Shown here piece after piece: positions 3,398 to 37,166 of a DNA stretch of 39,995 nucleotides. Made by a program: the position numbers and the translations under genes. Below the pieces are notes generated by a model. It saw only the letters and a list, made by a program, of their open reading frames with translations, did no database searches and was not told the origin of the DNA. Each line of letters opens with the position of its first letter. Positions within the stretch are counted from its first letter, which is position 1. The DNA comes from a virus. The stretch is from IMG/VR virus record IMGVR_UViG_3300046000_006760, positions 1 through 39,995 of that record. One strand, 5' to 3'.

Positions 3398-5103
3398 GCT
3401 TGATCGATTCCATCGTCGGCATCTTTTCGCCAGCCGCGCAGCTCCGACGCATGGAAGCACGGGCTACGATTCAGCAGGTCAACAAACTGCTTGGCACTGC
3501 AAAAGGCCCGTACGCTGCGGCCAATATCAATCGACTGAATGCACTTCGCGCAATAGTTCAAAAAGAGAATGAAGTAAGCGGAAGCCGGATTGAATTTCTT
3601 CGCGCTCAATCATGGGATCTGTACCGAGACAATCCAAGCTGCAGAAAAATCGTCCGATCCCTTGAAGCCAAGGTGATTGGCAAGGGGATGCACCCTGAAT
3701 CACTCGCATTGTTCGCCGATGGCACTCCAAATGTGCCTTTTCGAGAGCGTGCAATGCAGTTGTGGGAGCAGTTGCAGAGCGGATTCGATGCCCGTGGACT
3801 GCCCGGAAAAGGCGGTTTAACGATGGGCTGCCAGCAGAGATTGGCGTTCCGGTCTGTCATTTTGTCCGGCGATACGCTTTATAGAATCAAGCCGATCAAT
3901 GCTGCTGAACAATCGCGGCGGAACCTTCCGATTGCTGTGGTTCTGCAGTTGGTCGATACCTGTCGGCTGGCGAGTGAATCAGAGATTACTGGCGGCACAT
4001 TAGCTTCCGGCAATCGCATCTTCCGTGGCATCGAACTCAATGCGAACGATGAACGTGTTGCGTATTGGGTCAAAAATAACTCCGTTTCTGACTCGGCAGC
4101 GGCTCCGGCAACGGCAATCCGGATCCCAATCGACAAGATGGGACATCTTTACATCGAAGAAGACATTGACGAGCTTCGCGGAGTGCCGTGGTTTTCGTCT
4201 GCAATCCTTCGCGCTCGTCGCACTGATGACCTTGAATACAACGTTCTGACCGCTTCGGCGATGGCGTCGTGCATGGTTGCGGCCTACAGCAAGCCGACTG
4301 GTGCTAATAAGCTCGGGCTGAATCAGGGATCCGACTACAACTCGACATCTGCGGACGGCTCCGATCTGACGGACAGTAACGGCAACACGATCAACAAAAT
4401 TCAGCCGGGCATGGTTGTCAATAAAGGCAAAGACGGTTCGTTTGAGCTTCTCAGCCCTAACCAACCGAACATGAACCCGGAAGCGTTCGTGCAGCATCTC
4501 CAGCGTGGCACGGCATCGGCCATGCCAGGCACAAAAGCCAGCACTGTCACCGGGGACTATCGCAACAGTTCATTCAGTTCTGAGCGATCGGCGGACAACG
4601 ATTGCTGGCCAGAAATCCAGATTGTGCAGGAGTGGTTCGCGTCGCACTACTGCCAACCAATTTGGGAAACAATTCTTCGCACCGCAGTCTTCGAAGGGTA
4701 TTTCGATGGCATCGTGTCGGCTGAAGAGTTCCAGTCAAATCCGGAAATGTTTTCAGCAGCCAACTGGCAAGGCCCGGTCGCTCTTTCCATCAATCCGAAA
4801 GATGACGTTAGAGCAGCCAGCGAACGAATTCACGCTGGGCTTTCTTCACTTCAGATGGAATGTGCCAAGATAAACGTGAACTGGCGAGACGTGCTGAACG
4901 ATGCCGCTGAACTTTATTCAGTGGCTAAGTCTAAAGGCATTCCGCCCGAAGTGATTAACAACATTATGGGCGTCGACGCACAGGATCAGATTGCAGCGGC
5001 CACGATGGCAGATCAATCGGCGGCTGAATCACAAGTCATCTCTGGCCAACAGCCAAGAAGCCTGAACGAAGCCGAGCTAATGGAGCAAATTGTCAATGCG
5101 TAA
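3394..5103 (+). CDS. Portal protein, lambda gpB type
   Basis: Dodecameric ring at the capsid vertex through which DNA enters. The 569 residues fit the lambda gpB portal family: an N-terminal segment ending S-W-D-L-Y-R-D-N-P, the portal-typical helix with K-I-V-R-S-L-E-A-K-V-I-G-K-G, a G-D-T-L-Y-R strand, and a C-terminal helical part with W-E-T-I-L. The N-S-S-F-S-S-E-R motif around position 400 is characteristic of this family. I chose ATG 3394 over the upstream GTG at 3361 because it has a GGGAG ribosome site and overlaps the gpW-like stop. The protease-capsid gene overlaps its end by eight bases. Confidence 0.92.
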   Translation: MSLIDSIVGIFSPAAQLRRMEARATIQQVNKLLGTAKGPYAAANINRLNALRAIVQKENEVSGSRIEFLRAQSWDLYRDNPSCRKIVRSLEAKVIGKGMHPESLALFADGTPNVPFRERAMQLWEQLQSGFDARGLPGKGGLTMGCQQRLAFRSVILSGDTLYRIKPINAAEQSRRNLPIAVVLQLVDTCRLASESEITGGTLASGNRIFRGIELNANDERVAYWVKNNSVSDSAAAPATAIRIPIDKMGHLYIEEDIDELRGVPWFSSAILRARRTDDLEYNVLTASAMASCMVAAYSKPTGANKLGLNQGSDYNSTSADGSDLTDSNGNTINKIQPGMVVNKGKDGSFELLSPNQPNMNPEAFVQHLQRGTASAMPGTKASTVTGDYRNSSFSSERSADNDCWPEIQIVQEWFASHYCQPIWETILRTAVFEGYFDGIVSAEEFQSNPEMFSAANWQGPVALSINPKDDVRAASERIHAGLSSLQMECAKINVNWRDVLNDAAELYSVAKSKGIPPEVINNIMGVDAQDQIAAATMADQSAAESQVISGQQPRSLNEAELMEQIVNA

Positions 5104-7294
5104 ACGCAGCCAAAGAGATCAGGCTACAGCCGACACAAACTATCGATCTTTAATCGTTCGAGCCGCGACGTTCAACGAAGAAGGCCGAAGCGTTGAGGCG
5201 GTCATCAGCACCGAGCAGCCGGTGGATATGCCGGACTGGGGTCGCCAGGCGATGGTTCCGGAAGTTCTAGTGCCATCCGGAGCAGAGTTTCCATCGAATC
5301 GGCAGGTTCCGTTTCTTGATTCACATCAACGCCGATCGGTCAAAGATCAACTCGGCTCGGCTCGAGAAATCAAGGTCAACGGGAACGAAATCACGGCGAC
5401 GCTGGTGTTTCGCAAAAGCAAAGAATCTGACGACGCACTTGGCGGCGTTCGGGACGGTCACATCACCGACGTTTCGGTCGGATATGACGTTCTCAAACGC
5501 CAGTACATCGAAGCCGGGGCAAAGAAAACAATCGGAAATCGGACCTATGAAGGGCCGGTGAATGTTGTGACGAAGTGGCGGCTCCGAGAAGTCTCGTTGA
5601 CTCCGATCGGGGCAGATGATCAGGCAAAGTTGCGTGGGCTGGACCCCGCAAAGGTCCGTTTTAAGTCCTCAGAAGAACAGGAAGAATTCACAATGAACGC
5701 AGAACTCCGCGCTTTGCTGCTGTCAAAAGGCATGTCAGCAGATCTCACAGACGAACAGGCTCAGCGATGGTTGATCGACAACGCCGCCAAGCTCAGCGAG
5801 GTTAAAGAAGAGAAGAAGGAAGAACGCAGCCAGTCTCAGAGCCCACTGCCATCTGCGGTAGATCTCGCGAAGCTGGTCGCTGATGCGACCCGCCAGGCCA
5901 TTGCCGATCAGGCTGCAACGCGCAAGGCGTTCGAGGTCGATGTGCGTGAACTTTGCGAACTGTCCGATATGCCCGGAGAGATCGACGCTTGCCGAGCCTT
6001 GGAAGATATCGCGGCTGTGCGAAAACACATCAAGGACGTGAAAGCAAAGACTGCCGAGCACGTTCCATACGGTGCGAGCGTTCGACATGTTGGCAGCGGT
6101 GCTGAGCGTCTTCGCTCCGATATCGGTTCCATCTTAGCAGAAAAGGCCGTTCGCTCTGCTGTAAACGGCGACGAGGCAAAACTGGAAAAGCATCTTCCAG
6201 CGGCCAATCGCTCAAAGACTGCTGGCCAGTTGACTCACGCAACGTTGCTCGATTTGGCTACTGAATTCGTCCGATCGCAGGGTGTTCAAGTTCTCGGATT
6301 GACACGCGAACAAATCGCCATTTGTGCGATGTTCGGGCCAAAGGTCGCAGGCATTCGCAACCAGCGAGATGACGGTGCATATAACACCACTGGAAGCTTT
6401 GCGAACCTGACGCTGGATGCCATCAATAAATCCATGATGGTCGGCTATCAGGAAGTTCCAGCAACATGGCGTGGGCCAATGCGTCAAGGCGATTCAGTCG
6501 CGGACTTCAAGGCCATCAATCGCATTCGCCTCGGTGGTATCCCGAATCTTCCGGTCTGGAATACGACTGAAGAGCCTGACCGGGCAAGCATGAAGGACGC
6601 GAAAGAAAGCTACGCGGTTGAAGCTCGATCCATTGGGGTCGATTTCAACTACAAGCTGATCGTGAACGATGACATGAGTGCCTTGACTCGCATCCCGTTG
6701 GCTCTTGGTGATTCAGCCGCGCGAACTGTCAATGCCGTGGCATGGTCACAGATCACCAGCAACCCAACAATGGGCGACAGCGTCGCATTGTTTTCTGGCG
6801 TGTCAGGAAACCGGAAGCAGAGCAACGCAACGACTGGTTCCGTGAGCGACTACACAGCCGCCATCAACACGATGACCAATCTGATGATGGTAATGAAGGG
6901 CGAGAACACTCCAGAAGAAGCAGCCGGGCCGGATATTCTTGCTCTGATGCCGACATACTGCGTGTTTCCTGCCGCACTTCGCGGGACGCTGTTGCAGTTG
7001 ATCTACTCACAGACAGATCCAAAGGCATCCGTTGCGGGCATTCCGAACATCAACAACGGGTTGATTCCTGTGGTTGAGCCGCTGTTGGATGGTGCTTCGA
7101 CTACAGCGTTTTACCTGTTCGCAAATCCAAGCCGAATCGACACCGTCGAAGTAACCTTCCTGCAAGGTCAGGAGACTCCACAGGTTCGAAGCGTCATGGA
7201 CGAACATACATTGGCGATGACTTACTACGTGCTCCAGAGCGTAGGGGCCAAACCGCTGAATCATCGCGGCATCCAACGACATGCCGGAGCGTAA
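5096..7294 (+). CDS. Prohead protease-major capsid protein fusion
   Basis: One 732-residue reading frame joins two capsid assembly functions that are usually separate. Residues 14-180 are an HK97-type prohead protease, with likely catalytic His77 (F-L-D-S-H), Ser127 (I-T-D-V-S-V-G-Y) and Glu165 (R-E-V-S-L-T-P). Residues 200-330 are charged and helical, as expected for a scaffold or delta domain. Residues 340-732 resemble HK97-fold major capsid proteins of the Mu gpT-like group. The protease is expected to cleave itself and the scaffold from the capsid domain. ATG 5096 overlaps the portal stop; TTG 5090 is an alternative. An internal ATG at residue 200 has a good ribosome site and could yield scaffold plus capsid protein alone. 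Confidence 0.9.
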   Translation: MRKRSQRDQATADTNYRSLIVRAATFNEEGRSVEAVISTEQPVDMPDWGRQAMVPEVLVPSGAEFPSNRQVPFLDSHQRRSVKDQLGSAREIKVNGNEITATLVFRKSKESDDALGGVRDGHITDVSVGYDVLKRQYIEAGAKKTIGNRTYEGPVNVVTKWRLREVSLTPIGADDQAKLRGLDPAKVRFKSSEEQEEFTMNAELRALLLSKGMSADLTDEQAQRWLIDNAAKLSEVKEEKKEERSQSQSPLPSAVDLAKLVADATRQAIADQAATRKAFEVDVRELCELSDMPGEIDACRALEDIAAVRKHIKDVKAKTAEHVPYGASVRHVGSGAERLRSDIGSILAEKAVRSAVNGDEAKLEKHLPAANRSKTAGQLTHATLLDLATEFVRSQGVQVLGLTREQIAICAMFGPKVAGIRNQRDDGAYNTTGSFANLTLDAINKSMMVGYQEVPATWRGPMRQGDSVADFKAINRIRLGGIPNLPVWNTTEEPDRASMKDAKESYAVEARSIGVDFNYKLIVNDDMSALTRIPLALGDSAARTVNAVAWSQITSNPTMGDSVALFSGVSGNRKQSNATTGSVSDYTAAINTMTNLMMVMKGENTPEEAAGPDILALMPTYCVFPAALRGTLLQLIYSQTDPKASVAGIPNINNGLIPVVEPLLDGASTTAFYLFANPSRIDTVEVTFLQGQETPQVRSVMDEHTLAMTYYVLQSVGAKPLNHRGIQRHAGA
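5679..5695 (+). promoter_or_regulatory. Internal ribosome site and ATG inside protease-capsid gene
   Basis: AGGAAG at 5679-5684 stands eight bases before an in-frame ATG at 5693, exactly where the protease domain ends and the helical scaffold-like part begins. A nested start here would resemble lambda Nu3, which starts inside gene C. It would let the phage make far more capsid subunit than protease from one gene. Confidence 0.5.
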
Positions 7295-7312
7295 TGAGTT
7301 TGTGATTTGATA

Positions 7313-7347
7313 GCCAAAGCCGCTCCATCCGTGGGGCGGCTTATGGC
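7313..7347 (+). terminator. Stem-loop after capsid gene
   Basis: The arms 7317-7327 and 7332-7342 pair over 11 bases with one G-U pair around a TCCG loop, and four further pairs (7313-7316 with 7344-7347) extend the stem past a bulged A. No T-run follows, so this may be a weak terminator or a transcript-stabilising stem below the highly expressed capsid gene. Confidence 0.5.
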
Positions 7348-7425
7348 AGTAGAAAAGTCAGTTCTCGGTGTTCCGGGAATACCTTAGTCCGCCAATAGCG
7401 GCAACACCATTTGAAAGGCATTGAA

Positions 7426-8103
7426 ATGATTACTCGTGGCACTGCAGAATTCTGCGACTTATTCGACCGGGCACAAACGTTTTCAACTACGCCAGGCGCG
7501 AAGGGCTGGACCATCGCTGATACCTCGGCGGCCGGCTCACCGACTTATCTCTGCATCACGGAAGACGGCGGAGCTGCCGCACTTACCTGTGCGGCAACGA
7601 GCGAAGCTGAAAACCTTTGCCTGTATTTCAACGATGTTCTGCCGTGGGATCTTGCAAACCTGCAATACGTCAAGTTCGTCGCGAAAGTGGCAGGCATCGA
7701 CTCAGTGACCACATTGACAATGGGCGTTGGATCGGCTCGAAACGATACCCCAGACAGCGTTGCTACGAACGCATGGTTCCGGATCGAAGGGTCAACTTCG
7801 ACTTCAAACGTAGTCGTTGAGACCGACGACGCGGTCACGGACAACGACGACAAAGCGACCGGGCAAACGCTGGCAGCGGTCTACAAAACATTCCTGATCG
7901 ATTTCACGAATGGACTGGCTGACGTTCGATTTTACATCGAAGGTGAGCGGGTCGCATCCGCGACGACGTTCAGCATGTCCGGCCTGACAGCTGGCTTGAA
8001 CGTGCAGCCGATTATCCAGATCCAGAAGGCTTCGGGAACTGGAGTTCCTGCAGTCACAATCGCTCTGGTTGAAGCTCAGTTCCGCTACGCATACGGTGCA
8101 TAA
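7426..8103 (+). CDS. Putative virion decoration or spike protein
   Basis: A 225-residue protein rich in Ala, Thr, Ser and Val with alternating beta-strand patterns and little charge, typical of secreted-like virion surface proteins. It lies directly after the capsid gene, the usual place for a head decoration protein. ATG 7426 follows AAAGG and is a better start than the TTG at 7411. The stop overlaps the next start (TAATG). I do not recognise a specific family; a carbohydrate-binding-like beta sandwich is possible, since the D-V-R-F-Y-I-E-G-E-R strand pattern resembles lectin-like folds, but this is a guess. Confidence 0.6.
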   Translation: MITRGTAEFCDLFDRAQTFSTTPGAKGWTIADTSAAGSPTYLCITEDGGAAALTCAATSEAENLCLYFNDVLPWDLANLQYVKFVAKVAGIDSVTTLTMGVGSARNDTPDSVATNAWFRIEGSTSTSNVVVETDDAVTDNDDKATGQTLAAVYKTFLIDFTNGLADVRFYIEGERVASATTFSMSGLTAGLNVQPIIQIQKASGTGVPAVTIALVEAQFRYAYGA

Positions 8104-8465
8104 TGTCTCTGAAAACGCAAATCATTTCCGACGTGGCTGATGTGTTTCTGCAGGTCGATGACTTTGCAGAAACCTGTCAGCGTTTCGTCGGAGGCGATGC
8201 GGGAGACATTCGGACAATCATTGGCATTCCCGGCGACGATATGACGGCTACAGACGATGTTCGCGGACGTGGCTACACGCATTCGCGGACATTTGATTTC
8301 GCCGAAACGTCGACGCTTACGGAAGCCGATGCGATCCGGATCGGTTCAGTTCGCTACGAAGTGGTTCACGTTTCAGACCCAATGCAGGGAATGAAAACGG
8401 CAAAGCTCGCACGCACACAGCAGGAAGTGAAAGGCGGGCGAGTGTTCCGCACTGGTGATCTGTAA
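8103..8465 (+). CDS. Putative head-tail connector (neck) protein
   Basis: A 120-residue protein with an N-terminal helix (M-S-L-K-T-Q-I-I-S-D-V-A-D-V-F) and several beta strands ending I-R-I-G-S-V-R-Y-E-V-V-H-V and K-L-A-R-T-Q-Q. Size and order (after capsid and decoration genes, before the tail terminator candidate) match head-closure proteins of the lambda gpFII type. It is linked by TAATG overlaps on both sides. The assignment is positional. Confidence 0.5.
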   Translation: MSLKTQIISDVADVFLQVDDFAETCQRFVGGDAGDIRTIIGIPGDDMTATDDVRGRGYTHSRTFDFAETSTLTEADAIRIGSVRYEVVHVSDPMQGMKTAKLARTQQEVKGGRVFRTGDL

Positions 8466-8950
8466 TGGCTGCTCTTGATGTTGGCACCGCACTCACGAGC
8501 CTGCGAACGATGCTTTCAGCACTGCCCGCATGGCAAACGATTTGCGGCGTATCGACATCAGCAGAAGCAGCGAAGAAAATTCATTACGGGGCCGTTGAGC
8601 TTGACTCGGACGAACCAACATCAAGCTCGAATCCCTGCATTGTTTTGGACATCACAAGCCTGTCAACAATTTGGAAAGCCACAAGGCTTCACGGGACGGC
8701 GGTCTTCGAAATCCGTTTCTATTTGGAAATGCCGGACGCAGAGAAAGCAACTTACGGAACGCAGTACATTTGGATCTGGCAAAAGTTCTCGGCATTGCTT
8801 GACGCGATCAACACCACACTCAGTCGCGACGGTGGCGAGATGGTCAAGACCGTCGACATTCCGCTGATGCCTGGGAGATTGGATCCGGACAACAACGGCG
8901 GCGGGAGTGAGTGGAACTTCGTGTTGTCGCTCGGGGTTGATTTTATATGA
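8465..8950 (+). CDS. Putative tail terminator protein
   Basis: A 161-residue alpha/beta protein. Its N-terminal helix (V-G-T-A-L-T-S-L-R-T-M-L-S-A-L-P-A-W) followed by strands and a helix W-I-W-Q-K-F-S-A-L-L-D-A-I resembles tail terminator or minor tail proteins that cap the tube and join it to the head. It lies in the expected slot between neck and tube genes. TAATG couples it to the upstream gene and ATGA to the next. No conserved motif confirms it. Confidence 0.5.
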   Translation: MAALDVGTALTSLRTMLSALPAWQTICGVSTSAEAAKKIHYGAVELDSDEPTSSSNPCIVLDITSLSTIWKATRLHGTAVFEIRFYLEMPDAEKATYGTQYIWIWQKFSALLDAINTTLSRDGGEMVKTVDIPLMPGRLDPDNNGGGSEWNFVLSLGVDFI

Positions 8951-18342: not shown

Positions 18343-18400
18343 CGGAAGCAAGACCGTCATAGTCTGCGACCGGCAGGCAGGCAAAACCACAGCACTGGGA

Positions 18401-18429
18401 GAGCCAGAGTGTTCAGATCACTCTGGCTC
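18401..18429 (+). terminator. Bidirectional terminator between convergent genes
   Basis: GAGCCAGAGTG (18401-18411) and CACTCTGGCTC (18419-18429) form a perfect 11-bp stem with a seven-base loop. It separates the rightward tail operon (ending 18342) from the leftward block whose last stop codon lies in the dyad. It is therefore well placed to stop transcription from both sides, though no long T-run is present. Confidence 0.7.
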
Positions 18430-18741
18430 GCTGTGTTTCACGGCAGGTTTTGGTGGCTGAGCTTCTCGGCGGAACTCGTAAGCCACAAACTGAGCTTTTG
18501 TTTTCGACTCATTCCATCGAAAGCGAGCCCAGCAAGATGGGCATTGTGCAGGGCCATCGTTGAGATGTGTTCCACATTGCGGGCAGCGAGTTCGGCCTTC
18601 AAGAAATGCACAACCAAAAACGCCGATTGGACCAAACAGTAGGCAAAGAATAAAACCGCTGAGTGGCATATCTCGCTGGCTTGCAATCATGGTGCCCACA
18701 ATGATGGAAGCAAACCACGTCCCAAGGAAATAACCGGCCAT
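18418..18741 (-). CDS. Two-TM membrane protein with zinc ribbon
   Basis: A 107-residue protein with two hydrophobic segments (about residues 3-22 and 28-49) followed by a cytosolic zinc ribbon (C-P-Q-C and C-P-S-C, 11 residues apart) and a polar tail. ATG 18741 has GAGAGG upstream on the minus strand and overlaps the stop of the upstream micro-ORF (TGATG). It lies on the leftward block, the usual place for genes expressed in lysogens, so a superinfection-exclusion or host-modifying role is possible but unproven. Confidence 0.65.
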   Translation of the reverse strand: MAGYFLGTWFASIIVGTMIASQRDMPLSGFILCLLFGPIGVFGCAFLEGRTRCPQCGTHLNDGPAQCPSCWARFRWNESKTKAQFVAYEFRREAQPPKPAVKHSEPE

Positions 18742-18836
18742 CACGCACACCCTCTCATCACCCACATCAGCAGCAGAATCGGGCCTGCGAAAATGCAGGC
18801 GCGGAGATCACGGGCGATTCGGCGCGTTGGGTTCAT
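18741..18836 (-). CDS. Membrane micro-protein (31 residues)
   Basis: A 31-residue reading frame with a basic N-terminus (M-N-P-T-R-R-I-A-R-D-L-R) and a hydrophobic stretch (I-F-A-G-P-I-L-L-L-M-W-V-M). Its stop overlaps the start of the zinc-ribbon membrane protein (TGATG), consistent with translational coupling. There is no clear ribosome site, so it may be only a coupling leader or chance. Confidence 0.4.
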   Translation of the reverse strand: MNPTRRIARDLRACIFAGPILLLMWVMRGCA

Positions 18837-18920
18837 GGGGGACAGGATTGACGCAGTCGTGCGAAATGTCAAATGACTATCCAGCCGCACACAACCGTGC
18901 GACACTATAAGCATCGTAGT

Positions 18921-19265
18921 TCAGCATAAATGAACGTTTTGTAGAATGACCGCATTGCCTTCAGCCTGGGGGGATGTAAGATGTTCCCCGCCGCTTGTTG
19001 TGAGTCTACCGCGCTTGTGGCACTTTCTTATTTGCCATTTCGGGCTTCGTCCCGATGTCGCCCCGCGTTCATCAGGTAGACTCTGGTGGATGCGGGTTAT
19101 TTTTTGCGCGACACCTTGCAAGGCATCCAATGCGCTCGACATGCCCAACTCGCTGTTTCGATATCGCCTCTCAGTTTCGATCATGGCGCGTTTGCGAGTA
19201 GCTATCTGGTCCGCTTCCGCTTCTTCAGTCGAGCGACCTCGGCATTCAGCGTTTGACGTATCCAT
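18921..19265 (-). CDS. Possible coiled-coil protein (uncertain)
   Basis: A possible 114-residue product read leftward, overlapping the end of the basic DNA-binding gene by 64 bases. Residues 15-55 have helical heptad-like character with charged faces; the C-terminal half is less protein-like. No convincing ribosome site. I list it because it would otherwise leave about 365 bases (18837-19201) empty; apart from this frame I see nothing clear there. Confidence 0.25.
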   Translation of the reverse strand: MDTSNAECRGRSTEEAEADQIATRKRAMIETERRYRNSELGMSSALDALQGVAQKITRIHQSLPDERGATSGRSPKWQIRKCHKRGRLTTSGGEHLTSPQAEGNAVILQNVHLC

Positions 19266-19396
19266 TCGCTGAGATGCTTCAATCCAGCCGCTTCCCTCGC
19301 CTGATCGTACTGCGACCATTCAGCGTTGACCGCAACGAATGGGATTCGCTTCGACAGCTTTATGTCCGGATTCTTTTTTGGGCGTCCTTTTGCCAT
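19202..19396 (-). CDS. Small basic DNA-binding protein, RHH-like
   Basis: A 64-residue basic protein. It opens with an AT-hook-like G-R-P-K-K-N, continues with a beta-strand-like R-I-P-F-V-A-V and an amphipathic helix pair (W-S-Q-Y-D-Q-A-R-E-A-A-G, then L-S-E-W-I-R-Q-T-L-N), the order seen in ribbon-helix-helix repressors and mobilisation accessory proteins, and ends in a basic tail. It is the first leftward gene next to the palindromic operator at 19477-19492, so a lysogeny repressor or regulator role fits. I chose the ATG rather than the longer upstream start because the N-terminal K-G-R-P-K-K begins there. Confidence 0.6.
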   Translation of the reverse strand: MAKGRPKKNPDIKLSKRIPFVAVNAEWSQYDQAREAAGLKHLSEWIRQTLNAEVARLKKRKRTR

Positions 19397-19452
19397 GCGC
19401 GGAAACGTATCACCTAAAATACTTTGCGTCAATGTTGAACACTTAGGGCCAG

Positions 19453-19492
19453 TTTCGTTGTGCTACGTATTTACATTTCGTTGTGTAACGAA
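19453..19492. promoter_or_regulatory. Operator candidate: repeated TTTCGTTGTG with palindrome
   Basis: TTTCGTTGTG occurs at 19453-19462 and again at 19476-19485, 23 bases apart (about two helical turns). The second copy is part of a perfect palindrome, TTCGTT-GTGT-AACGAA (19477-19492). It lies between the leftward block and the rightward xis-int genes, so it is a good binding site for the phage repressor. On the minus strand a TTGACG at about 19413-19418 could be part of a promoter for the leftward gene. Confidence 0.55.
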
Positions 19493-19548
19493 TATGGTCC
19501 GTAAGCGTGGAGGCTCATCGACCAGGGTGGTTTCCAATCGAGCAATTG

Positions 19549-19730
19549 TCCGGTTCGCCGGATCTTCTTCCCTCGCACGGGTCTGGTCACTCGTGCGGGG
19601 GATTTTGCGTTCTCGGATTCATCAAACGAAAAAAGCTTTCGAAACCTGGCAGTCTCAAAAGCTTGTGATTCGTGGGGCCGGTTGGCCCTGATGATGTCAT
19701 TGTCCGGTCTTGGAGTAGTAATCCAAGACC
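19549..19730 (+). ncRNA. Structured leader with three hairpins before xis
   Basis: Three stems lie in a stretch without a good gene (19397-19800). First: TCCGG-TTCG-CCGGA (19549-19562). Second: CCCTCGCACG (19570-19579) with CGTGCGGGGG (19592-19601), 12-base loop, followed by ATTTT, which resembles an intrinsic terminator. Third: GGTCTTGG (19706-19713) with CCAAGACC (19723-19730). The loop of the second stem carries GTCTGGTC and 19727-19734 carries its complement GACCAGAC, so a longer alternative pairing exists. This could be an attenuator or antisense RNA controlling xis-int. Confidence 0.4.
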
Positions 19731-19800
19731 AGACGTATTCCTCAAATTCCCCGGCGGGAAATCATTCGGAACGACCATACTCTGGTCGAGAAGGTTAGAG

Positions 19801-20130
19801 ATGTCAACACAGGAAACGTGGAAATCATGGATTGACGAATGCAGAAAGCAGGAATTGCCGGTCGTAATAACAACTGGCGAGCCGTGGTTTTCGGTTCAAT
19901 ATCTATGCTCAAACTTTTTGATGATTGAAAAACACGAGGATTTTGCGAAACGCTGCAGGCAGGCGAATATCCAGATTCTGCGGGTGAATCGCAAATCTCT
20001 CATTCGATTTTCGGATGTGGAAAGCGTTTGCAATGAGCAGTCTGCAGAAGACGAAAACGGGATACCGGCTCCAGTTCCGGCTGAACAAAAAAGCACAAAC
20101 GCTAAGTCTCGGAAAAATCCGAAAGCCTGA
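19801..20130 (+). CDS. Excisionase-like DNA-binding protein
   Basis: A 109-residue protein likely to set recombination direction or regulate integrase. Residues 29-76 have the pattern of excisionase/MerR-like winged helices: P-W-F-S-V-Q-Y-L-C-S-N-F-L, then A-N-I-Q-I-L-R-V-N-R-K-S-L-I-R-F-S-D-V-E-S-V, which matches the usual R-V-G-R-R-x-x-I-R-x-S-D-L wing. The C-terminal tail is Pro/Lys-rich. ATG 19801 has AGAAGG upstream. The integrase gene starts inside its 3' end, as in many xis-int pairs (98-base overlap). Confidence 0.65.
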   Translation: MSTQETWKSWIDECRKQELPVVITTGEPWFSVQYLCSNFLMIEKHEDFAKRCRQANIQILRVNRKSLIRFSDVESVCNEQSAEDENGIPAPVPAEQKSTNAKSRKNPKA

Positions 20131-33007: not shown

Positions 33008-33211
33008 GTGGCTGCAAAGTCCAAAAGCTGGTGGCAATCCAAAACGATTTGGATTAACGCAATCACTGCTGCGACCGCGACTCTCACCGTGCTTGGTGGT
33101 CAGCAGATCGTGGCCGATCACCCTGCAATCGCTGCGGGCATCGTCGCTGTCATTGGCGGGCTAAACATCGCCCTGCGAATCATCACCGTGCTGCCGATCG
33201 GTGGTGAGTGA
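33008..33211 (+). CDS. Holin
   Basis: A 67-residue membrane protein: W-W-Q-S-K-T-I-W-I-N-A-I begins the first TM helix (about 14-31), then a turn with V-A-D-H-P and a second helix (40-60) ending G-L-N-I-A-L-R-I-I-T. This S-K-T-I-W...N-I-A-L-R pattern is common in small two-TM phage holins. Holins make the membrane pores that start lysis. GTG 33008 has GGGTGAG just upstream and the promoter lies 90 bases before it. The next gene starts at the TGATG overlap. Confidence 0.8.
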   Translation: MAAKSKSWWQSKTIWINAITAATATLTVLGGQQIVADHPAIAAGIVAVIGGLNIALRIITVLPIGGE

Positions 33212-33654
33212 TGGCCAAAAAAGCCCCTGCAAAGACGGCACCGGCAAAGCGAAAGCCAGCGGCTAAGAAAGCCCCTGCCATCGCTGTCGTGCCACCGAAG
33301 TCAATCGCGTGGCGGTCTTGGTTAGTCAGTGGGGCCAAGGCTGCTGCGTGGATTGTTGCCGGGGCTGTGGCTGGCGTTTATGCGGCGGGCGGCATTGAGG
33401 TTGGGCCGGGGCCGGTTGGCGACGTGTTGCAGACATCCTATGCGGCTGACCGAGTAACACAGATTGCGGTGCTTCGGGATCTTGCAAAGCAGCCGTTCGA
33501 TGGAGCGACCGCAGACGGGAAAATCGCTGCTCAAGACTGGTTCAACGTCCAGCGGTTCCGCAATCGGCCAACGGATTACACGCCGTACACTGATGCGGTT
33601 GCGGAGGCAATCAACGCAAACTCCGAAGAGGCTTTAGCCAACGAATTAGAATAA
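33211..33654 (+). CDS. H1-like basic protein with one TM segment
   Basis: A 147-residue protein. Residues 1-32 repeat A-K-K-A-P-A-K units as in histone H1-like tails; residues 41-61 are a transmembrane helix (A-A-A-W-I-V-A-G-A-V-A-G-V-Y-A); the rest is a small helical domain (D-R-V-T-Q-I-A-V-L-R-D-L-A-K). With the basic tail inside the cell, the domain would lie outside the membrane. It is coupled to the holin and followed by a strong stem-loop, so a lysis accessory or spanin-like role is plausible but unusual. Confidence 0.6.
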   Translation: MAKKAPAKTAPAKRKPAAKKAPAIAVVPPKSIAWRSWLVSGAKAAAWIVAGAVAGVYAAGGIEVGPGPVGDVLQTSYAADRVTQIAVLRDLAKQPFDGATADGKIAAQDWFNVQRFRNRPTDYTPYTDAVAEAINANSEEALANELE

Positions 33655-33718: not shown

Positions 33719-34618
33719 ATGTCAGAAATGATGATAACGCAGAAAACTGAACAATTCGAGCCAGAGCACACGCTGGGCGAATACAACGGAAATGCCGTGC
33801 GATGCCGATCCGTCAACGGGGTTCTGTTTCTGTCGGCCACTGATATGTGTCAGGCAGCCGGAAAGCGATGGAATAAGTACAACGCAAATCAGCAGACCCA
33901 AGAGTTTATCGCGAAACTATCCGAAGATTTACGATGCCCGAATTCGGGCATCGTGATTTCCCTGAAAGGCGGGCAGGGAGAGCAAGGAACGTGGGTTCAT
34001 GAAGACCTTGCCTATCACCTTGCAATGTGGTGCAGCCCTGAGTTCCAGTTGTGGTGCATCCGGCAGATAAAGGCACTGACACAAGGAAAGCCAGTTCATC
34101 GTGAGATCGCTGAAGCCCATGTCGACACAATGGGTCTTCTCAATCGCGTGGCAGAACTACTTCACTCGCAGGCGTCAGAGTCATACGCAAGAGATATGAG
34201 AATCGAAGTAAAGTTCGATAAGCACGCTGAGGAAGTTCGGAATGAGTTCAGCAATGTACACCAGCGACTTGACGAGATTCAGACGCGAAGAAACCTATCT
34301 GAAGCTACGAAGGCGAATCACTGTAGGATAGTGAGTATTTTTTACAGCGGGAAATGCCCTTGCTGTCAGGATGTTCGCATCATTGATGAGTGCGGATTCA
34401 AAATACCAAACATTCTGGAATACGATCACTGGCTCAGTAAAACACAACCCGGATTGTCACAGACATGGCCGGTGTGCAAGTCGTGTAATACAGAACTAAA
34501 AAAACAGGATGTCAAGGCTGCGGCAAGATCCTTCTTCGAGACATATCAAAAGCGGCGATCGCAGTTACATGATAGGCCGCGAGTCCGATGCCTGCCCGGA
34601 ATGGAGGACGCACGATGA
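33719..34618 (+). CDS. KilA-N domain protein with C-terminal HNH
   Basis: A 299-residue two-domain protein. Residues 20-120 are KilA-N-like (F-L-S-A-T-D-M-C-Q-A-A-G-K-R-W, W-V-H-E-D-L-A-Y-H-L-A-M-W-C-S-P-E-F-Q-L-W), a DNA-binding fold common in phage antirepressors. Residues 130-200 are helical and linker-like. Residues 210-260 are HNH-like, with C213-x2-C216, Y-D-H-W (Asp236-His237) and C253-x2-C256-N. KilA-N is usually fused to other DNA-binding parts; a nuclease partner suggests DNA cleavage or a selfish element. ATGA couples it to the peptidase gene. It sits in a lysis region, away from any replication gene. Confidence 0.75.
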   Translation: MSEMMITQKTEQFEPEHTLGEYNGNAVRCRSVNGVLFLSATDMCQAAGKRWNKYNANQQTQEFIAKLSEDLRCPNSGIVISLKGGQGEQGTWVHEDLAYHLAMWCSPEFQLWCIRQIKALTQGKPVHREIAEAHVDTMGLLNRVAELLHSQASESYARDMRIEVKFDKHAEEVRNEFSNVHQRLDEIQTRRNLSEATKANHCRIVSIFYSGKCPCCQDVRIIDECGFKIPNILEYDHWLSKTQPGLSQTWPVCKSCNTELKKQDVKAAARSFFETYQKRRSQLHDRPRVRCLPGMEDAR

Positions 34619-35442
34619 GCGATCCACGAGTCGGCTACTGGCTGCATGATGTTGAGGACTTTGATTTCCTGAAGTCTCTCCCCGGTGAATCGTCCGTTTT
34701 GGCGATGCGCGGCAGTTACAGTGAAGTCAAGGTTGATCCTCGCGCAGTGATGAAGATTGAAAATCAGGGCAGCGTTGGCAGTTGCCAAGGGCACGCCCTC
34801 AGTTCATGCGTCGAACTGTGCTACTACATTGCGACAGGCGACCTGACTCGGCAGTTAAGCAGAGCTTTCGGTTATTACGAAACGCAGCGAATCGACGGCA
34901 TTAACGGCGACAGGGGCTCGACCATAAGCGGCGGGATCAAACTCGCGACAACTCTCGGAATCCCACGGGAAGAACTCTGGAAATACTCTGGCCGCTACGA
35001 AAACCGCAGGCCATCGAATTGGAATGAAATCGTTGAAGACGCAAAGTTGCATCAGGTCGGCCAGTCATACCGAATGGAATCATACGACGGGGTTCGGACG
35101 TTCCTTGGAAGCGGACAAGGCGGCATTTCGATCGGAATTTCGTGGAGTGGGGAAGTTGACCGGCCAGTCGTCAACAGTTTCAGCGGAGCAGGCGGCGGCG
35201 GACATGCCATCGCGTTGCTTGGACTCTCAGAACGGCTTGATCAGTCCGGGCGTCCATACGTTTGGATGTTGAACAGTTGGGGAGCTAACTGGGGCAACAA
35301 AGGCTGGTCTGAGTGGGCTCCGAGTGCTGTTGAGCAAATGCTAAAGCATCAATACACGGCTTGCTTTGGGCTGTCAGACATGCCAAACGTCAAACCTCGT
35401 GAGTATACACTTGAAGATCTCAAAAAGGGGCTTGCGATATGA
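34615..35442 (+). CDS. Papain-like cysteine peptidase (C1A), candidate endolysin
   Basis: A 275-residue peptidase of the papain fold. Catalytic residues are plain: Gln51 and Cys57 in N-Q-G-S-V-G-S-C (papain: N-Q-G-S-C-G-S-C, same six-residue spacing), His197 in G-G-H-A-I-A-L-L-G, and Asn220 in L-N-S-W-G-A-N-W-G. The usual C1A order Cys-His-Asn is kept. There is no signal peptide and no pro-domain of normal length, though about 50 residues precede the active site. ATG 34615 has GGAGG upstream and overlaps the KilA-N gene. It lies between holin and lipoprotein genes and no peptidoglycan hydrolase is found elsewhere, so it may act as endolysin on cell-wall peptide bonds or protein layers. Confidence 0.88.
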   Translation: MSDPRVGYWLHDVEDFDFLKSLPGESSVLAMRGSYSEVKVDPRAVMKIENQGSVGSCQGHALSSCVELCYYIATGDLTRQLSRAFGYYETQRIDGINGDRGSTISGGIKLATTLGIPREELWKYSGRYENRRPSNWNEIVEDAKLHQVGQSYRMESYDGVRTFLGSGQGGISIGISWSGEVDRPVVNSFSGAGGGGHAIALLGLSERLDQSGRPYVWMLNSWGANWGNKGWSEWAPSAVEQMLKHQYTACFGLSDMPNVKPREYTLEDLKKGLAI

Positions 35443-36014: not shown

Positions 36015-36162
36015 GGGCGATTGCTTGGTGTGGACATTCCCGGAGCCGGTAAAGGTGTCAACGCCGGGGCCGGATTCGAGATTGAGAGAAGTCAGACAGT
36101 ATCGAGATCGGATTGAGTTCGAGTTGTGGCCGTGGGCGAGTGTTAGGATCGAGTTTGAATGA
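35875..36162 (+). CDS. Small hypothetical protein in lysis region
   Basis: A 95-residue protein with several beta strands (L-F-H-G-G-K-V-S-F-G-G-R-E-I, L-V-W-T-F-P-E-P) and a final R-I-E-F-E-L-W-P-W-A-S-V-R-I-E-F. GTG 35875 is my preferred start, with GGAGGTG 13 bases upstream; ATG 35854 is possible. It overlaps the lipoprotein gene and is joined by ATGA to the next. Function unknown. Confidence 0.5.
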   Translation: MQSFKISERVQSPVNALLFDLFHGGKVSFGGREIRLDKPVVPTAVIEGDCLVWTFPEPVKVSTPGPDSRLREVRQYRDRIEFELWPWASVRIEFE

Positions 36163-36494
36163 CAGCAGCATTTTCACAACGCGACGCTTATTCAATCGAG
36201 GCGCAGGCCTGGCGAGAGTTCGGCGTCGTTCCAATAGCGGCCGGCGTGCTCAAGGAATCGAAGTCGCAACGACAGAAGCGGCATCGAATCAGCGAGACAA
36301 TAGCCAGCGGCTTGACGGTGCTGGAGTCGAACAGCCCACCGCGATCACGAGACGAAGCGATCAGAATGATCGTCGGAGCCGTCGGCATGGCTCTGGCGTT
36401 CTTGTTTCCGCAGTATCGCTTGGCAATTCAGGTTGCTGGCTGGCTGTGGGATTACGTGCACGGTGATCCAAAAGCAATAACACAACAAGACTGA
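36159..36494 (+). CDS. Small membrane-associated protein
   Basis: A 111-residue protein. Residues 68-99 contain one or two hydrophobic helices (I-R-M-I-V-G-A-V-G-M-A-L-A-F-L-F, then L-A-I-Q-V-A-G-W-L-W-D-Y), preceded by a basic segment (S-Q-R-Q-K-R-H-R). It may be a second holin-like or anti-holin protein, as the lysis region lacks another candidate; this is an inference. ATGA overlaps the previous stop. Confidence 0.5.
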   Translation: MTAAFSQRDAYSIEAQAWREFGVVPIAAGVLKESKSQRQKRHRISETIASGLTVLESNSPPRSRDEAIRMIVGAVGMALAFLFPQYRLAIQVAGWLWDYVHGDPKAITQQD

Positions 36495-36512: not shown

Positions 36513-37166
36513 ATGTGGATCGACGAAACAGCGAACGAGCATCATTTGAGGACATGGATTAAGCATTGTCCCGCGATGAAACTCGTCAGCACTTTGGATG
36601 GTCAAATTCTTTGGGCCAATGCAGCGTTTTGTGATTGGTCACAGTACACATTGACGGAGTTAAGGCGGCTCACATGGATGGCAATCAGCGTGCCTGACAA
36701 AAGTCTGGAAGCTGATGTTGATGAGGCGAGAAACCTCGATGCGTACAATCCAACGTACCAAGTTAAGAAGCAATATATCCCCAAAGGCGCGAAGCCGGAG
36801 TGGGGCCAGTTGACAGTTATGAGATACCCCTTGTCGGGTGAGATTGAATGTTGTCTCTGCACATGGGAGCCACTAAAAAACGGGACGGCAACAGCGTTTG
36901 CGATGGCGATGGAACATACTCAGAAACTGGATGCGAGAATTGAAGCGATGACGATGGAACTCAGGGCAGTGACAACGCAGACGGATGAGGACAAGTTCGT
37001 CCTCGGAGCAATCAGAATGGTTCAGCGATATCCCAAAATGACAGCCGCGTGCGTCGCGTTTGCGCTGTCGATTTTCGGTCTGAACAATGTTGTGGAATTG
37101 TTGCAGCGAACAGGGGTCGTGAACCTTCCAGTCAAGGTCACGATGCAGGAACAAGTCGGACAGTAA
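36513..37166 (+). CDS. PAS-domain protein with C-terminal TM helix
   Basis: A 217-residue protein. Residues 18-118 fit a PAS fold: M-K-L-V-S-T-L-D-G-Q-I-L-W-A-N-A-A-F-C, then T-L-T-E-L-R-R-L-T-W, a helix with A-D-V-D-E-A-R, and W-G-Q-L-T-V-M-R-Y-P. A coiled-coil-like helix follows (130-160), then a transmembrane helix (176-194, M-T-A-A-C-V-A-F-A-L-S-I-F-G-L) and a short tail. No kinase, HTH or other output domain exists. PAS domains sense ligands, redox state or light; here the output would be through the membrane. It lies at the end of the lysis cassette, before the tail fibre gene. ATG 36513 follows GAGG. Confidence 0.7.
   Translation: MWIDETANEHHLRTWIKHCPAMKLVSTLDGQILWANAAFCDWSQYTLTELRRLTWMAISVPDKSLEADVDEARNLDAYNPTYQVKKQYIPKGAKPEWGQLTVMRYPLSGEIECCLCTWEPLKNGTATAFAMAMEHTQKLDARIEAMTMELRAVTTQTDEDKFVLGAIRMVQRYPKMTAACVAFALSIFGLNNVVELLQRTGVVNLPVKVTMQEQVGQ

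Follow-up and report, generated by a model that had tools for sequence, protein, structure and literature searches.

Papain-like cysteine peptidases are known as cell-lysing enzymes in the CHAP and C71 families (PMC10318531). The CHAP and NlpC/P60 endolysins of clan CA belong to the papain-like superfamily and serve phage lysis, and the pseudomurein endoisopeptidases PeiW and PeiP (C71), whose family also has members in viruses, lyse cells with non-murein walls (PMC10318531). Both groups differ in family from the enzyme described here: the window has no CHAP or NlpC/P60 match, and PeiW and PeiP act on archaeal pseudomurein. The closer kin are the papain C1/C1A peptidases (PF00112; solved structure 3ois), with which the window enzyme shares its core family, a Gln/Cys/His/Asn active site and a short N-terminal extension. 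It differs from them in sitting in what appears to be a phage lysis-type cassette, where its divergent counterpart (type B, below) has no Pfam match. The arrangement resembles the holin-endolysin-spanin cassettes, being a compact late cassette with a holin, a cytoplasmic enzyme, a membrane partner and a lipoprotein. Here, however, a C1 peptidase occupies the enzyme slot, and the lipoprotein is often thioredoxin-like in relatives.

The papain beside a GH25 lysozyme in the Thermoanaerobacterium phage THSA-485A is the nearest precedent. This protein (Tsac_2838, AFK87691.1) is likewise a phage C1A papain, of 277 aa and with no apparent signal peptide, and adjoins a wall-lysis gene; at positions 6948-8702 of this locus (L086), the papain gene directly follows the GH25 lysozyme gene. 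The system differs from the present one in its Firmicute host and in that lysozyme gene. Its papain is weakly similar to one planctomycete chromosomal homologue (L078; 26% identity, E=4e-3), and no similarity to the window protein was detected. The "papain-like amidase" of a Bacillus phage (PMC9703825) was ruled out as a counterpart, being described as a tail-associated permuted amidase. The first-pass annotation had supposed a C1A endolysin to be undescribed. That is close to correct: no published description was found in the open-licence literature, although GenBank already lists a phage papain gene next to a lysozyme.

The window, that is, the whole stretch of DNA analyzed, is an IMG/VR virus record of 39,995 bases, possibly a fragment. 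Its left end carries terminase, portal and capsid-protease fusion genes (PHROG and Pfam matches), and the fusion is the phage's own maturation protease. Ahead of the integrase gene, a stretch of ∼1.7 kb (18343-20014) gave no convincing gene in family searches. A tail-fibre-like gene lies near the peptidase gene. The features discussed below are collected in Table 1.

Table 1. Features of the window, with their coordinates and the evidence for each.
Feature	Position	Strand	Evidence
Prohead protease-major capsid fusion	5090..7294	+	phrog_4523 E=1.2e-109; PF04586 and PF25209
Putative holin, 67 aa	33008..33211	+	phrog_34682 "holin" E=0.0019 (weak)
Exported partner, one TM segment, Lys/Ala/Pro-rich N-terminus	33208..33654	+	Alignment, split identities
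KilA-N gene between partner and peptidase	33719..34618	+	PF04383 E=8.4e-22
Papain-like C1 cysteine peptidase, 275 aa, predicted lysis enzyme	34615..35442	+	Pfam, PDB, alignments, dN/dS
Codon of Gln51 (oxyanion hole)	34765..34767	+	Invariant in alignments of phage and planctomycete chromosomal homologues
Codon of Cys57 (nucleophile)	34783..34785	+	Invariant in alignments of phage and planctomycete chromosomal homologues
Codon of His197 (catalytic)	35203..35205	+	Invariant in alignments of phage and planctomycete chromosomal homologues
Codon of Asn220 (third catalytic residue, Asn-Ser-Trp-Gly)	35272..35274	+	Invariant in phage and planctomycete chromosomal homologues
Lipoprotein, lipobox LALGC, 191 aa	35439..36014	+	Lipobox pattern, hydropathy
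Small membrane protein often found after the cassette	36159..36494	+	92% identical in L010

The peptidase reading frame is real and keeps the coordinates first given for it. Comparison with C1 family profiles, proposed as a check of the assignment, confirmed it: the protein matches Peptidase_C1 (PF00112) at E=2.4e-8 and 34.7 bits, above the curated cut-off of 20.7. PF00112 was the only family reported at E<=0.05, with neither CHAP (PF05257) nor NlpC/P60 (PF00877) found in the protein. The best PHROG match was phrog_16701 "peptidase" (E=1.1e-6), and the best solved relative in a PDB search was the cysteine protease 3ois (E=9.5e-12, improving to E=4.7e-19 with a family profile). No propeptide family was matched in the papain-like peptidases.

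The claim of a full papain active site was also borne out, with all four residues at the positions proposed and invariant in homologues. Gln51, Cys57, His197 and Asn220-Ser-Trp are invariant across 10 phage homologues, and Gln51, Cys57, His197 and Asn220-Ser are retained in three planctomycete chromosomal homologues that are 39-40% identical. The dN/dS ratio is ∼0.06-0.10 against the window copy, where dS is near saturation, and 0.05-0.16 in closer pairs. The active site is thus intact and the gene is under purifying selection. The N-terminus (MSDPRVGYWLHDVEDF) has no hydrophobic stretch and no apparent signal peptide. The ATG at 34615 overlaps the stop codon of the preceding gene (ATGA), and the same -4 overlap recurs in relatives carrying this type of peptidase (type A). 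A search of 50,697 phage records gave no match to the window papain or to type B, and the type-A profile found nothing in a pattern scan of 84,980 GTDB genomes. AlphaFold models of both types, built from shallow alignments, had a mean pLDDT of about 40 and were too poor for use.

The gene was first described as lying between holin and lipoprotein genes. The position is right, although the holin is not an immediate neighbor, as a TM protein and a KilA-N gene follow it. The putative holin has no Pfam match; its gene also occurs in relatives L002 and L010-L019. The TM protein is the exported partner, whose C-terminal domain differs according to peptidase type. The KilA-N gene, whose C-terminal part is HNH-like by eye only, is missing here from most relatives, and because the TM protein overlaps the peptidase directly in those, it looks like an insertion. 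At the same junction, L012 carries a different gene (6736-7377), also HNH-like by eye, as if this site were favored by mobile genes.

The lipoprotein contains heptad-like sequence and, in its C-terminal part, a pair of Cys residues; this pair is conserved in the window and relatives as CPGGxCP or CGPNGC, and the relatives' lipoprotein also carries an HL..HGI.T.GMTHQ.M..IH motif. A lipobox lipoprotein alongside a TM partner recalls an o-spanin. Two things set it apart: changes in the TM partner go with the peptidase and not the lipoprotein, and, at 191 aa, it is larger than usual o-spanins. A search of 392 planctomycete genomes gave no member of the lipoprotein family, a negative that is uninformative. 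Beyond the cassette, the gene at 36513-37166, conserved in several relatives, encodes a protein that matches PAS folds weakly and bears a C-terminal membrane segment.

The comparison of the cassette covered about 45 related loci, drawn from IMG/VR and from the chromosomes of planctomycetes. Since either the peptidase or the holin served to collect these relatives, cassette sharing is partly due to selection and the co-occurrence counts are not independent samples. A tight order was found in them: a small holin-like protein, an exported partner, the papain-like peptidase and an exported protein or lipoprotein gene, with short overlaps between genes in most phage copies. The head gene is interchangeable, several types of small membrane proteins occupying the same spot. 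In L039, L051 and L052 it is the Pfam family Phage_holin_10 (PF23987, 1.6e-17 to 2.4e-20), so the peptidase does occur in a cassette with a holin in relatives, while the window's own holin scores weakly.

The holin-based search added five loci (L010, L015, L016, L018 and L019) in which the slot is filled by a different protein of ∼290 aa, termed type B. Its motifs are Q...DC.GN, GGGHA and NSHG, with the Gln-Cys spacing one residue shorter, and it matched nothing in Pfam or the PDB. When the type A and type B profiles were aligned with hhalign, a probability of 96.5 (E=1e-9) was obtained. Type B is probably a second, very divergent papain-like peptidase filling the same slot. As a query, it found 40 IMG/VR loci.

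The partner protein appears to follow this difference. Among phages whose TM proteins share a Lys/Ala/Pro-rich N-terminal half, these halves have a median identity of 0.83 both within and between peptidase types, whereas the C-terminal halves have a median identity of 0.71 within types and 0.25 between them. Because the C-terminal domain tracks the peptidase type, partner domain and peptidase appear to have been exchanged together. In other type-B phages, the same C-terminal domain is preceded by other kinds of export or membrane segment, suggesting that its site of action is extracytoplasmic.

Where the downstream gene could be read, its product appears, from its hydropathy and lipobox patterns, to be either exported or a lipoprotein. 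A thioredoxin-type CxxC is present in this protein in 20 of 43 such loci, and PF00085 scores above its cut-off in three (L049, 1.6e-6; L077, 1.5e-6; L078, 1.6e-5). The thioredoxin-like form is found in most of the distant type-B phages and in four planctomycete chromosomal loci; no thioredoxin motif or CxxC is present in the window lipoprotein. One type-A phage (L007, 6825-7577) carries a lipoprotein with an ACPPC thioredoxin-like motif and so bridges the two kinds of downstream gene.

A survey of 392 planctomycete genomes found the peptidase family in G204, G293 and G331 and, more weakly, in G115. Most of the weaker papain matches in this survey were domains in open frames of ∼570-860 codons and were rejected as cassette genes. 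In all four genomes, the exported partner comes first, then the papain and then the thioredoxin-like protein; G204 has an additional small gene ahead of the papain. The G204 cassette lies within a 44.8-kb prophage bounded by 46-bp direct att repeats, with one att copy at a tRNA-Arg gene and the integrase adjoining. The cassettes of G293, G331 and G115 (L078, L079 and L090) stand among ordinary chromosomal genes. No phage genes were evident around these three, which are possibly domesticated. The chromosomal copies, together with the joint exchange of peptidase and partner domain, carry most weight in identifying a lysis-type cassette, and the assignment of the peptidase to it can be called well supported on these genomic patterns.

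The capsid fusion also points to planctomycetes. Its best full-length relative found is in planctomycete genome G297 (31% identity over residues 16-732, E=5e-66); against isolated phages, matches reached ∼E=1e-30 over partial length, in a database of a different size. The type-B profile gave one match in the GTDB scan, on a phage-like contig in a Planctomycetaceae MAG, which is weak host evidence alone. From these relationships, we infer that the window phage infects planctomycetes.

Nine planctomycete regions found through the window capsid protein provided a less biased sample. One of them, a second prophage-like region of G204 (contig 19, L127-L128, 29552-32137), encodes a lipoprotein and a papain-like protein consecutively with a holin-like protein; this holin-like protein resembles the window holin, and the papain-like protein has 407 aa with hydrophobic segments at both ends. 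Because no papain-like gene was found in the other eight of the nine regions, the papain cassette is not general in planctomycete phages.

Taken together, the product of the peptidase gene is probably the enzyme that attacks the host wall in a holin-dependent lysis cassette of a planctomycete phage, and its setting is most simply explained by a role in lysis. The endolysin role first suggested for it is partly supported, by the lysis-type cassette with holins and by the want of a recognizable peptidoglycan hydrolase in the window and among the matches listed for relatives. The peptidase would stay in the cytoplasm, as its apparent lack of a signal peptide implies, until the holin opens the inner membrane. 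Once released into the periplasm, it would meet the exported, membrane-anchored partner encoded by the preceding cassette gene, which may either position or restrain it. It would then cleave peptide bonds of the envelope, the simplest target being the protein component reported for planctomycete walls. The exported thioredoxin-like protein of relatives may break disulfides in the envelope by reduction, or maintain the catalytic cysteine in its reduced state. Holin release, the envelope as substrate and the roles of partner and thioredoxin-like protein are all inferred.

The nature of the wall bears directly on this substrate. A passage in PMC3035269, citing work of the 1980s, describes a cysteine-rich, disulfide-stabilized protein envelope; later work showed that planctomycetes possess lysozyme-sensitive, DAP-containing peptidoglycan sacculi (PMC4432640). 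The earlier suggestion that a protein-cutting endolysin would fit the planctomycete envelope stands as far as the host is concerned, which chromosomal and capsid relatives support; however, because the peptidoglycan is lysozyme-sensitive (PMC4432640), a protein-degrading enzyme alone may not suffice. The peptidase could cleave the peptides of peptidoglycan, or work alongside a hydrolase that escaped recognition, as the THSA-485A arrangement suggests.

Searches for such a hydrolase were negative. The first-pass annotation had reported no other wall hydrolase in the window, and this holds for Pfam, with no peptidoglycan hydrolase among the 24 families matched in the rest of the window. Amidase_2 was absent from ten phage records. 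The matches listed for representative proteins (at least about 145 aa) from seven relatives include no peptidoglycan hydrolase, nor do those listed for the G204 prophage (25 of 36 Pfam families). In seven of the genomes whose capsid-found regions gave no papain-like protein, Phage_lysozyme, Amidase_2 and SLT had no match in the fetched regions.

This lack of a hydrolase match, in the window and among the matches listed for seven relatives, would also suit a peptidoglycan endopeptidase endolysin that cuts planctomycete peptide stems or cross-links as CHAP or NlpC/P60 enzymes do elsewhere. Such an enzyme would draw on the same cassette evidence and on the lysozyme-sensitive, DAP-containing peptidoglycan (PMC4432640). 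Yet the match is to Peptidase_C1 and not to CHAP or NlpC/P60, the closest solved relatives are papain-type proteases, and the frequent thioredoxin-like neighbor better suits a protein substrate, which leaves this explanation rather unlikely. An accessory lysis protease seems improbable. It would remove a protein layer, following or assisting a peptidoglycan hydrolase either too divergent for recognition or encoded beyond the ends of the record, and Pfam offers no hydrolase candidate in the window or, among the matches listed, in seven relatives. In its favor, the THSA-485A papain gene follows a lysozyme gene, the record may be a fragment, and the scans of relatives covered the listed matches of proteins of at least about 145 aa.

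Two further roles would place the peptidase outside lysis. Phages place accessory genes near lysis genes, and type B has no Pfam assignment, so an anti-host, exclusion or host-takeover protease could sit in the late region by chance. We consider this very unlikely, since the peptidase keeps a fixed site between holin/partner and lipoprotein in different phage backbones and a prophage, and is replaced only by another papain-like enzyme, the exported partner domain changing with it. A virion or capsid-maturation protease is scarcely credible despite the nearby tail-fibre-like gene, as the peptidase travels with holins and exported proteins rather than head or tail genes, and the maturation role was rejected because a prohead protease is already fused to the capsid protein.

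With the peptidase read as the wall-attacking enzyme of a holin-dependent cassette, a more specific proposal can be made tentatively. The cassette may be a system for disulfide-stabilized, protein-rich envelopes, in which a holin-released cysteine protease acts with a cognate exported partner domain and, in most lineages, an exported thioredoxin-like reductase, which would open up the wall or switch on the protease; this system would also stand alone in planctomycete chromosomes.

No description of phage lysis of planctomycetes was found in the literature searched. If the lysis reading is true, a C1A protease in the endolysin slot, often coupled to a thioredoxin-like protein, would represent a novel mode of escape from the cell, and the papain slot with its disulfide-reducing neighbor suggests a route across an envelope rich in protein. 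It would further inform the long-standing question of what the planctomycete wall is made of, between the disulfide-stabilized protein envelope described in that passage of PMC3035269 and peptidoglycan (PMC4432640), and it makes the peptidase a candidate enzyme for opening planctomycete cells.
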